Virus record (IMG/VR): IMGVR_UViG_3300035070_000157
Location: 1 to 37,264 of that record
Length of the DNA stretch: 37,264 nucleotides
Origin: a virus
Strand: one strand, 5' to 3'
Shown: piece after piece, positions 3,303-14,329 of the stretch
Numbering within the stretch: position 1 is the stretch's first letter
How the letters are laid out: every line of letters begins with the position of its first letter
Made by a program: the position numbers and the translations under genes
Notes under the pieces: generated by a model
The model's input: only the letters and a program-made list of their open reading frames with translations
Told to the model about the DNA's origin: nothing
Database searches by the model: none

Positions 3303-3848
3303 ATGGCTAAACGCCCCACGAAAATCGTAGTATCTCCACCCGCAACCGCTGCTTATGCGTGGCTAAACACTCCTGACGAGGGTCAACAGTACTCGGACGG
3401 TAAATACAAAGTCACCTTGTGTCTCAAAAAAGGTGACCCAACGGTAGAAACTTTCGTCGCGCAGATGGAAGAGTTCTCAAACGACCTCGCTGAGAAAGAA
3501 TTCGGCAGCGTACCTAAAGTTCTACGGATGCCACATAAAGACGGCGATGAGAACAAGAAGGAAGAATTCCACGGTCACTGGACGATCACATGTAAGTCCA
3601 AGTACCAGCCAGGATTTATTGATGACACCAAGAAGCCACTGCCAGACGGTATGGTCCCAATGTCAGGTGATCTGGTTCGAGCGTCATTCGCATTGAACCC
3701 TTACGAAACCGGCGGCAACAAAGGTGTGTCAGGCCAGCTTCGAAATGTGATGCTTTGCGACAAACGTAACGCTGGTAACGATGACTTTGCGGACATCGCT
3801 GCAAGCGAACAGTCCACGGACGATGACGATGACGAGTTCGACATCTAG
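3303..3848 (+). CDS. Single-stranded DNA-binding protein (T7 gp2.5-like)
   Basis: A 181-residue protein in the position and of the size of T7 gp2.5 (232). Such proteins coat single-stranded DNA at the fork and recruit the polymerase and primase-helicase through an acidic tail. Here the tail is very clear: the last residues are DDDDDEFDI, with an aromatic near the end as in gp2.5. The N-terminal part has the expected OB-fold-like look (PATAAYAWLNTPDEG, then KYKVTLCLKKGD), but I assign it by pattern and context, not by a diagnostic motif. ATG 3303 is preceded by AAGGA (3290-3294). It is the first gene after the terminator at 3248-3282. Confidence 0.85.
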   Translation: MAKRPTKIVVSPPATAAYAWLNTPDEGQQYSDGKYKVTLCLKKGDPTVETFVAQMEEFSNDLAEKEFGSVPKVLRMPHKDGDENKKEEFHGHWTITCKSKYQPGFIDDTKKPLPDGMVPMSGDLVRASFALNPYETGGNKGVSGQLRNVMLCDKRNAGNDDFADIAASEQSTDDDDDEFDI

Positions 3849-7824: not shown

Positions 7825-8799
7825 ATGACCATTGCGTTAATTGACGCCGATATCATTGCGTATCGGGCGGCTGCAAAAACTATGGACCGCTTCGATGACG
7901 TCTTGATTGGCGACCCAAAGACCGCGATCCGCGAGGCTGACTTGTTGGTCGAACACTGGACACGGGTAGTTAAACCAAACAAAATCATCATGTGCTGGTC
8001 GTGTCCGTCGCGTGTGTACTTTCGCCACGACATCTACCCCGAATACAAAGGAAACCGCAAAGGTTCTGAGAGTCCACCGACACTCAGTGCGGTCATTGAG
8101 TACCTAAAAGACAAACATCAGTCGGTCCACTTCGCCGGTCTTGAAGCTGATGACGTGTTGGGAATTCTCAGTGGTCATCCCGACCTTGCGAACCCTGTCG
8201 TGATCTCAATCGACAAGGACATGCACACGCTTCCCACCAAGTTCTACAATCCTGATCGAATGACCAGACCACTGAGGACTAACAGAGGTATGGCTGACCG
8301 GCTGGTCTACAAGCAAGCGTTAACTGGAGACAGTGTGGACAACTACAGAGGCATTCCAGGGATTGGCCCAGCGAAAGCCGAGAAGATTTTGGACAGTGGT
8401 CGTGAGTCAAACCTCTGGCAATCCACCGTCGCGGCGTTTGTCGATAACCGGCTGACCACGAAATACGCAATCACCATGATGCAACTCGCACGGATATTGC
8501 GGTTCGAAGATTACAATTACACTACGGGAGAAGTAAAATTATGGCATCCGACAGAAACGATCTGGCACAAACCGTCAGCCCTGCCCACTACAAGTTCCGC
8601 AACGGTATCGAAACCATCGATTACAGTCTTGCAGTCTGCGAAAAACTCAAAGGGAACGAAGCGGTCTGCGTCAGCAACGTCATCAAGTACGTCAGCCGAT
8701 ACGCCACCAAAGGCAGACCGGAAGCGGACCTCCAAAAAGCGCAGTGGTATCTCCAAAGGCTCATCAAAGAGTTCAACAAAGGTCGTGAGCAATGACTAA
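7825..8799 (+). CDS. 5'-3' exonuclease (T7 gp6-like) with overprinted C-terminal extension
   Basis: A FEN/5'-3' exonuclease expected to remove primers and degrade host DNA. Seen: IDADIIAYR with D7 and D9, YPEYKGNRK, LEADDVLGIL, ISIDKDMHTLP and the helix-hairpin TGDSVDNYRGIPGIGPAKAEKIL. ATG 7825 has AGGAA 8 bases upstream; the open frame runs back to 7771 but without support. The normal end of this family, GEVKLW plus one or two residues, is reached at W240 (base 8542). The frame does not stop there: it continues about 82 residues to 8799 as a Ser/Thr/Lys-rich tail (for example SSSTSADTPPKADRKRTSKK), overlapping the whole DUF3310 gene in another frame. The core is certain; whether the tail is functional is open. 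Confidence 0.92.
   Translation: MTIALIDADIIAYRAAAKTMDRFDDVLIGDPKTAIREADLLVEHWTRVVKPNKIIMCWSCPSRVYFRHDIYPEYKGNRKGSESPPTLSAVIEYLKDKHQSVHFAGLEADDVLGILSGHPDLANPVVISIDKDMHTLPTKFYNPDRMTRPLRTNRGMADRLVYKQALTGDSVDNYRGIPGIGPAKAEKILDSGRESNLWQSTVAAFVDNRLTTKYAITMMQLARILRFEDYNYTTGEVKLWHPTETIWHKPSALPTTSSATVSKPSITVLQSAKNSKGTKRSASATSSSTSADTPPKADRKRTSKKRSGISKGSSKSSTKVVSND
8541..8795 (+). CDS. DUF3310 family protein (SaV-like)
   Basis: An 84-residue protein with the DUF3310 pattern: AHYKFRNGIETIDYSLAV, then CVSNVIKYVSRYATKG, then DLQKAQWYLQRLI. Such proteins are common beside phage nucleotide-metabolism and replication genes and are often labelled nucleotide kinase-like; their biochemical role is unproven. ATG 8541 is preceded by GGGAG (8525-8529). 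The whole gene is nested inside the exonuclease reading frame in a different phase. Its stop TGA (8793-8795) overlaps the MazG start ATG (8792-8794). The strong family match makes this frame the ancestral coding frame in 8541-8795. Confidence 0.85.
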   Translation: MASDRNDLAQTVSPAHYKFRNGIETIDYSLAVCEKLKGNEAVCVSNVIKYVSRYATKGRPEADLQKAQWYLQRLIKEFNKGREQ

Positions 8800-9220
8800 G
8801 ATTGCACTGGATAAACTGTTGTCCCGCGAAGAAACTTACAAGGAATTCGCAGAGGCTGCACGGCACCCGTTGAACGTCGAGTTCACCAAAGCTGAATGCT
8901 ACCGCCGCTTTAAATTTTTGGCTGAAGAAGTCGATGAAGTCTTAGACGCAATTGACAAAATGGACGATATTGATTTCGAGCCTGTCACGGTCGAGCAAGC
9001 CATCGAACTTAAAGCCCACTTGCTGAAAGAACTTGCTGACGTTCAGTACACCCTCAGTGGTTTTGCCGCCACGTTTGGCCTCAATCTGTCGAAAGCATAC
9101 GAGCGTGTTCACGCATCGAACATGACGAAGTTCAGTGACGATGGTGCCGTCTATAGTGCCAACGGCAAAGTCTTGAAGCCAACCACATACAGACCCCCAT
9201 ATCTTGAGGACATTTTATAA
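8792..9220 (+). CDS. mazG: MazG-like nucleotide pyrophosphohydrolase
   Basis: A 142-residue all-alpha NTP pyrophosphohydrolase of the MazG / PRA-PH superfamily. The metal-binding pattern is visible: LAEEVDEVLDA (ExxxE-type helix) and LLKELADVQYTL (ExxD), followed by LNLSKAYERVHASNMTKF, which is typical of phage versions. It would hydrolyse non-canonical or excess nucleotides, or, as proposed for cyanophage MazG, affect alarmone-linked host physiology; that second role is contested. It is coupled by an ATGA overlap to DUF3310 upstream, and its last base overlaps the ribonucleotide reductase start at 9220, so it sits in a nucleotide-supply cluster. Confidence 0.88.
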   Translation: MTKIALDKLLSREETYKEFAEAARHPLNVEFTKAECYRRFKFLAEEVDEVLDAIDKMDDIDFEPVTVEQAIELKAHLLKELADVQYTLSGFAATFGLNLSKAYERVHASNMTKFSDDGAVYSANGKVLKPTTYRPPYLEDIL

Positions 9221-12799: not shown

Positions 12800-14329
12800 A
12801 TGTCAGAAACTGCAAAGGCCCGTTACGCCAAGATGAAGGCGAAGCGCGACCCGTATCTCCGACGCGCACGGGATTGTGCTGAACTGACCATTCCGTATCT
12901 AATGCCACCTGAAGGTCACAACGAACACTCTGTAATGCCCGAACCGTACCAAGGGTTAGGCGCACGGGCCGTTGTGTCCTTGTCGGCTCGGCTAATGGTT
13001 GCGATGTATCCCCCAGGGAAACCTTCGTTCAAGCTAGACATACCACCAGAGGCGCGTATTGCACAAGGTGAGATGGCGTTAGGCTCGGACATCGTGCAGG
13101 GACTAGTGCTTTCCGAACAGTTAATCCAAGCAGAGATCGAAAGAAAACAATGGAGACGTGCAACTAACCTTGCGCTCCAGTATCTTTTGGTCACCGGCAA
13201 TGCGCTCGAAATGATGCAAGCTGACAACTCTATTCGTGTTTTTCGACTAGACCAATATTGTGTGTCGCGTGACATCACCGGTGCTGTCAAAGAGATCATT
13301 ACTGAAGAGTACCTCAGTCCAGAAGCACTGCCAGAATCCGCACGGAAACTGGTGGCGGCTGACGATTTCTCACAGAACTCTGTGCCGCTCTACACGCACT
13401 GCAAGATGGACAAGACGGGCGTTTTCGTTTGCTACCAAGAGATCAACAGCAAGAAAGTCGCTGGGTCTGAGGGTCGTTATGAAACACTCCCGTACAATGC
13501 ATTGCGCTACACCAGTGTCATTGGCGAGGACTACGGGCGCGGCAAAGTCGATGAGCATTTACCAGATTTACGCACGGTTGACGCCTTGTCCAAATCGATG
13601 CTCGACGGGGCCGCAATGGCTAGTCGCAACGTCACCATGATCCGTCCGAATGCTGCCGGTGGTCTTAACTTGCGACGTCGGTTCGCGAAGGCTGACAACG
13701 GTGACATCATTGTAGGCAACCCAGAGGACGTTGTGATGTTGCAGTTCGCCAACAACAGCGGAATGCAGTTGTGTGCTAACGAACTCGAAAGACAAACACG
13801 CGAACTGTCGGCGGCGTTCTTGATGGGCGCGGAGACCGTAAGGGACTCGGAACGTACTACAGCGTTTGAAGTCCGCAAGATGACTGAGCAACTCGAAGGT
13901 ACTCTTGGTGGTGTCTACAGCCAGCTAAACGCTGATATGCAGCAAGCCCGTATGTCTCGTCTTGTTCTCCAAATGAAACGCAGCGGACAGCTACCGCCGT
14001 GGCCTGACGGAATGGTCGAGCCGGTAATCCTGACGGGGCTCGAAGCACTGGGTCGTGAGCAAGACATCTCGCGTGTCCAAACGGCTCTCCAGTTTATCCA
14101 AGGGATGCCACCCGAAACACTGGCTTACGTTAAGTTCAGCGAACTGTTGGGCAAAGCGTTCCACGGTCTGAACCTTCCCGACGCTGTTCGATCTGAAGAA
14201 GAAGTCCAAGAAATACAACAGCAACAACAACAGCAAGCCGCGATGCAGCAAGGTGCACAAGCGATGGCGGGTGCGGCTGGTCAAGCGGTCGGCGGTATGG
14301 CTGGCGAACAAGCGATGATGCAACAGTAG
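12800..14329 (+). CDS. Portal protein (T7 gp8-like head-tail connector)
   Basis: A 509-residue connector (T7 gp8 has 536) that forms the dodecameric ring at the unique vertex through which DNA is packaged and ejected. Recognised by the opening helix (RYAKMKAKRDPYLRRARDCAE), the LTIPYLMPPEG motif, GARAVVSLSARLMVAMYPPG, and the family-wide order of segments. The C-terminus (from about 465) is rich in Gln and Ala (EIQQQQQQQAAMQQ), which may be a disordered or inward-facing tail. AAAGG precedes ATG 12800. It is followed 9 bases later by the scaffold gene, as in T7. Confidence 0.95.
   Translation: MSETAKARYAKMKAKRDPYLRRARDCAELTIPYLMPPEGHNEHSVMPEPYQGLGARAVVSLSARLMVAMYPPGKPSFKLDIPPEARIAQGEMALGSDIVQGLVLSEQLIQAEIERKQWRRATNLALQYLLVTGNALEMMQADNSIRVFRLDQYCVSRDITGAVKEIITEEYLSPEALPESARKLVAADDFSQNSVPLYTHCKMDKTGVFVCYQEINSKKVAGSEGRYETLPYNALRYTSVIGEDYGRGKVDEHLPDLRTVDALSKSMLDGAAMASRNVTMIRPNAAGGLNLRRRFAKADNGDIIVGNPEDVVMLQFANNSGMQLCANELERQTRELSAAFLMGAETVRDSERTTAFEVRKMTEQLEGTLGGVYSQLNADMQQARMSRLVLQMKRSGQLPPWPDGMVEPVILTGLEALGREQDISRVQTALQFIQGMPPETLAYVKFSELLGKAFHGLNLPDAVRSEEEVQEIQQQQQQQAAMQQGAQAMAGAAGQAVGGMAGEQAMMQQ

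Follow-up and report, generated by a model that had tools for sequence, protein, structure and literature searches.

The window, i.e. the whole 37,264 nt stretch of IMG/VR virus record IMGVR_UViG_3300035070_000157 (positions 1 to 37,264), is from a T7-like phage that encodes an RNA polymerase of its own, a primase-helicase, a DNA polymerase, a gp2.5-like SSB and a ribonucleotide reductase. Features of the window are on the + strand unless stated otherwise. An exonuclease open reading frame starts with ATG at position 7825 and is stop-free up to the TAA at 8797–8799, giving 324 codons and a translated sequence of 324 aa. The body of the protein (residues 1–240, positions 7825–8544) is a T7 gp6/FEN-like 5′-3′ exonuclease with GEVKLW at its C-terminal end. 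It matches PF02739 (E-value = 6e-14) and phrog_107 (E-value = 8e-57) in searches with Pfam and PHROGs profiles. The N-terminal resolvase-like domain displays the conserved acidic residues of T7 gp6-like 5′-3′ exonucleases (5_3_exonuc); the invariant Asp/Glu columns include D7, D9, E107, D109, D110, D130, D132, D169 and D172. AlphaFold, run on 25 aligned sequences, gives a pLDDT mostly >90 for the body and about 96 for the block that extends to residue 250. The predicted body has a FEN-like fold, with Foldseek matches to ExoIX, T5 FEN and T4 RNase H (E-values of about 1e-10 to 1e-8).

The last residue of GEVKLW is W240 (8542–8544), and base 8544 is where the original prediction had placed the end of the conserved region. 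A short end after ..LW is usual for phrog_107 proteins, although not defining; the window sequence has 84 extra codons. These encode a C-terminal tail at residues 241–324 (8545–8796), two residues longer than the 82 first reported, and the frame does cross the whole of the downstream DUF3310 gene in another phase to the TAA at 8797–8799, as had been described. The tail has no match in Pfam or PHROGs. For its first ten or so residues, HPTETIWHKP (8545–8574), AlphaFold predicts an ordered structure and, at residues 246–248, a short strand that is already within the overprinted part. Residues 256–324 (8590–8796) have a pLDDT below 50 and are predicted to be disordered, and a Lys/Arg-rich stretch, KADRKRTSKKRSGISKGSSKSSTK, is found at 8710–8781. 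The initial description of a Ser/Thr/Lys-rich tail, overprinted through a long same-strand overlap, stands, with disorder as a predicted property.

The DUF3310 gene (8541–8795) encodes 84 aa and is nested in the exonuclease open reading frame in the other frame. Its translated sequence matches PF11753 (E-value = 6e-16) with 58.6 bits, well above the curated Pfam cut-off of 24. The ATG (8541–8543) is located within the exonuclease Leu-Trp codons (TTA TGG), and a Shine-Dalgarno-like sequence, GGGAGAAG, is found at 8526–8533 in the Gly-Glu-Val codons. Sequences of the GGAG/GGAA type are present at the equivalent position in other lineages. The nesting of the start codon in ..TATGG is common to many related phages, and thus it is older than the tail. 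In many T7-like phages the segment that encodes the GEVKLW end (8526–8543 in the window) also supplies the gene that follows with its Shine-Dalgarno sequence and start codon; its codons are therefore twice constrained, also outside of the clade with tails. Inspection by eye did not reveal a slippery heptamer at the start of the overlap that could serve a programmed frameshift into DUF3310.

A MazG-like pyrophosphohydrolase gene (PF03819/PF01503) follows at 8792–9220, with the exonuclease stop falling among its first codons. Since the exonuclease terminates beyond both the DUF3310 stop and the MazG-like start at 8792, the ATGA at 8792–8795 is used by all three forward frames: by the exonuclease, as the DUF3310 stop and as the MazG start. 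An antisense open reading frame of 91 codons is also present over DUF3310 (8517–8792, − strand). The equivalent antisense frame contains hardly any stops in most lineages (five in total, in 4 of 14 lineages) and is probably a by-product of the rarity of TTA, CTA and TCA codons.

Relatives were gathered by IMG/VR searches with the exonuclease. Long tails are present in 32 distinct sequences that represent 14 lineages, the window group and 13 others, and these are on separate contigs of uncultured T7-like phages from many metagenomes. The tail frame is open in 10 of 10 window-group contigs, whose exonucleases are 95%–97% identical. Identity is 68% for L091 and 59% for L108, and falls to about 42% for the most diverged tailed lineage; the other tailed lineages are L284, L266, L109, L110, L112, L280, L111, L279, L114, L115 and L283. 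Tails are 52–114 aa long with overlaps of 163–300 nt, and the phase is identical in every case. Depending on the lineage, the overlap spans all of the partner gene or half or more of it. More distant exonucleases outside the clade, all examined isolates included, end 2–38 codons past the conserved ..LW, and the cultured or fosmid phages examined are likewise short-ended after the motif. The original prediction had looked to relatives that end near base 8550 as counter-evidence; no close or intermediate relative does so, only these much more distant exonucleases. A search with the L109 tail against 50,697 phage records gave no match.

In a tree of 75 exonuclease bodies the long tails are found in 14 rows, which form two adjacent and well-supported groups. 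A single long-tail clade is not rejected (p-AU 0.575); the tail may have had one origin, or two, i.e. one in the L283/L114/L115 group and one in the rest. Near relatives (L163, L208, L116, L155 and L185) have extensions of 13–26 residues, which may be intermediates or losses. DUF3310 is widespread, so the partner frame is the older of the two and the long tail has the restricted range expected of an overprinted extension. In another relative, L107 (Pelagibacter phage HTVC131P, OR420738.1, 12827–13579), the exonuclease is annotated in two pieces, 12827–13201 and 13244–13579, with a gap between them; this is possibly due to a frameshift or a sequencing error.

When DUF3310 was resampled synonymously with the codon usage of the window, the tail frame was open in 1.2% of draws. 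For the window alone this is unusual and not decisive; the result becomes decisive only across relatives. With each partner resampled by the codon usage of its own contig, the probability of an open frame is 0.0006–0.21 per lineage, which multiplied over the 14 lineages comes to about 1e-24, although the lineages share ancestry and are not fully independent. The tail frame has no stop in 1,133 overlapped codons, while the third sense frame has 37. The gene beneath the tail is a clear DUF3310 (PF11753) member; outside of the clade no exonuclease tail lies over such genes, and the same +1 frame is open in 0 of 134 of these control genes, with a mean of 5.5 stops. In each lineage 10–23 single changes that are synonymous in the partner would create a stop in the tail. 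At the rate of fourfold sites in the exonuclease body, about 23 tail stops are expected in three close groups and none is observed. Permutation of codons within the gene often gives an open frame (0.11–1.0); this null is uninformative on selection because the gene's own codons are already biased.

Synonymous divergence, which the original prediction had proposed to compare, is lowered about 2- to 4-fold in the overlap. In the window group pS is 0.108 in DUF3310 vs. 0.242 in the exonuclease body and 0.285 in MazG. In the L112 group it is 0.052 in the overlap vs. 0.237, and 0.176 once past the exonuclease stop; in the L110 group it is 0.220 in the overlap vs. 0.380. The comparison omits a DNA polymerase control, which was misaligned between contigs, and the row for the gene after the overlap in L109/L265. 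Codon choice is also altered. Inside the overlap, each of the 14 lineages has C in place of T at the third codon position of the partner (Fisher p 1e-13 to 0.02). A T at this position cannot give a stop in the tail, but it gives a hydrophobic residue there. The bias is absent from the exonuclease body and from other genes of the same contigs. In L111 and L279, where the exonuclease stops inside the partner, third-position T jumps to 0.31–0.38 past that stop in the same gene, and stops appear.

The clearest signals in the tail composition are enrichment of Ser/Thr and depletion of hydrophobic residues. Hydrophobic residues make up 0.07–0.17 of the tail across lineages vs. 0.25–0.38 in the stop-free null, roughly 2- to 4-fold less, and 0.13 vs. 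0.30 expected in the window. With a pN of 0.044, the tail changes more quickly than the body (0.026), thus its composition is under stronger selection than its exact sequence. In about half of the lineages the tail has a basic block in excess of the synonymous null, with a combined P = 6e-8 over 14 lineages; the block of the window (P = 0.16) and those of several other lineages are within the null. Specific selection for net positive charge finds no overall support; most DUF3310 lineages are at or below the expected net charge. The same nucleotides are accordingly coding in two selected frames, as in an overprinted C-terminal extension.

In L111 (3705–4022) and L279 (4711–5037) the downstream gene is a DUF6378 gene in place of DUF3310, and a tail of 52–56 aa is kept. 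Here the overlap covers 163–175 nt out of about 320, and the exonuclease ends midway through the partner. The starts of these tails (HPTKKTLW and HPSKKDIW) resemble those of the DUF3310 lineages, and the partner leader VAPNEENLMD of L279 is similar to MAPNEDRMDE of the L280 DUF3310. These similarities point to an exchange inside the overlapping gene, in which the partner domain seems to have been replaced downstream of a retained leader. The tails of L111, L279 and L280 are the richest in Lys/Arg. A separate case is L266 (1365–2432), where the exonuclease body is 82% identical to that of L109, and the tail and DUF3310 are of the L284 type. Tail and partner appear to have moved together, by recombination near the junction of LW and the start codon.

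Two explanations treat the open frame as something other than an old, selected extension. Loss of the stop that is recent or tolerated, or an assembly error, in this genome only had been the alternative offered at the outset. It has nothing in its favor except the window itself, and it is ruled out by the relatives that carry the same tail: an identical layout in 32 distinct sequences on separate contigs, down to about 42% exonuclease identity, and no stop where about 23 are expected within three close groups, leave it a negligible probability. Scarcely more credible is an artefact of base composition, in which high GC and C-ending codons open the +1 frame without selection. High-GC DUF3310 genes do have fewer stops and a lower third-position T, and the frame antisense to DUF3310 is nearly open as well. 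However the codon bias is local to the overlap and, in L111 and L279, ends where the exonuclease stops although the partner gene continues, and control genes at GC 0.42–0.55 average 3.0–4.5 stops with none open. The synonymous nulls, the natural controls and this within-gene control together rule out openness by chance or by codon bias.

The other two explanations give the peptide no role. In one, the open frame persists because ribosomes that come from the exonuclease and cross DUF3310 adjust its level of expression or shield the mRNA, and the tail is only a by-product that must be benign. The nested downstream start with its Shine-Dalgarno-like sequence in the lineages and the short coupling overlap at the same site in phages of the ancestral type fit such ribosome traffic, which would also account for stop avoidance and a benign composition. 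Nevertheless a full crossing is not needed, since the exonuclease of L111 and L279 stops midway in the partner, and neither the basic blocks nor the ordered first segment are predicted by it; we consider it unlikely. Slightly less likely again is a tail that arose by chance stop loss and has no job, with selection merely purging hydrophobic or toxic versions. The main composition signal, fewer hydrophobic residues and more Ser/Thr, is what such purging would leave and fits the composition of benign peptides in E. coli (PMC9210321), and the tail sequence is only loosely conserved. But none of the truncating changes that are free for DUF3310 has been fixed, the tail has outlasted replacement of its partner gene, and the basic blocks are in excess in about half of the lineages. 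These two are the main rival explanations.

A genuine overprinted C-terminal extension of the exonuclease, maintained by selection, is thus left as a highly probable explanation, a judgement that applies to the extension and does not include the tether function. An ancestor would have lost the exonuclease stop that related phages have a few codons past LW, and translation would then have continued in the +1 frame through the downstream nucleotide-metabolism gene. The rates and codon patterns show both frames to be under selection since that loss, as judged from the aligned sequences. The extended protein is very likely made because there is no stop in frame; with none after GEVKLW, every exonuclease molecule should carry the tail. 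DUF3310 would be made by separate initiation at the Shine-Dalgarno-like sequence and the ATG nested in the GEVKLW codons. By prediction, the tail starts with an ordered segment of about ten residues and continues as a disordered chain that is rich in Ser/Thr and includes a basic stretch.

Related to possible function, the likeliest role of the tail, put forward tentatively, is to tether the exonuclease flexibly, either to nucleic acid or to the acidic C-terminal end of the phage SSB. This SSB is of the gp2.5/Enc34-like type (3303–3848; phrog_112, E-value = 9e-37; PF10991, E-value = 2e-21) and its terminal sequence, ...DDDDDEFDI, is a candidate partner of the tail. A tether would hold the nuclease on nucleic acid or SSB during removal of primers or flaps and degradation of host DNA. 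Support for such a role is weak because in the window, as in several other lineages, basic charge does not exceed the null. Within the ordered segment Trp247 is conserved in 11 of 11 group-A lineages. At this site the partner has Met, Val or Leu, in each case encoded by NTG before G, and the conservation of Trp247 could come from selection in the tail frame or from the use of NTG as an alternative start codon by DUF3310. In FEN1-type nucleases flexible C-terminal tails bind DNA or the clamp. These enzymes belong to the same catalytic fold family, and a disordered basic tail past the core of the phage exonuclease would act similarly. Unlike theirs, the phage tail arises by overprinting, and the likeness does not imply a sequence relation between the tails.

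Extension of a protein at its C-terminal end by overprinting is already known. The C-terminus of phiX174 protein A over gene K is described as a de novo overlapping extension of an older protein (PMC8227390), and it is on the same strand, as is the exonuclease tail. However phiX174 is a small ssDNA phage and its gene K is also new, whereas here the partner is older and widespread and the phage is a tailed dsDNA phage. The phrog_107 exonucleases of Pelagibacter, Prochlorococcus, Roseobacter and Rhizobium podoviruses are the same enzyme in the same neighborhood, often with the nested start in LW, but they stop within 2–26 codons of LW and none of the examined isolates is long-tailed. Overprinted viral products are biased to disorder and have a narrow phylogenetic range (Rancurel; Willis and Masel, reviewed in PMC8227390), and the exonuclease tail, with its predicted disorder and restricted distribution, is similar. 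The overlap of 163–300 nt is more than tenfold longer than the median of 14 nt (IQR 8–26) for +1 overlaps over all viruses (PMC8903798). A published description of this exonuclease/DUF3310 overlap was not found in the literature searched, and the long tail over DUF3310 is a new instance of a known process.

In dsDNA phages long overlaps on the same strand are rare, and they are readily taken for artefacts. The gene finder Prodigal caps same-strand overlaps at 60 bp (PMC2848648), thus one of two such overlapping genes would be lost or truncated. The present overlap has persisted through deep divergence, both of its frames are clearly under selection, and the swap of the partner gene provides an internal control. 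The lineages, including the short-tailed sisters as possible intermediates, form a natural series for the birth of a disordered region by overprinting, and are also suited to asking what a tail does for a replication nuclease. More broadly, the tail may well be, at close to an even chance, a conserved functional module of a T7-like replication nuclease. Such a module would be selected strongly enough to shape codon choice in any nucleotide-metabolism gene that it overlaps, would have survived the change from DUF3310 to DUF6378 in L111 and L279, and may have arisen twice.
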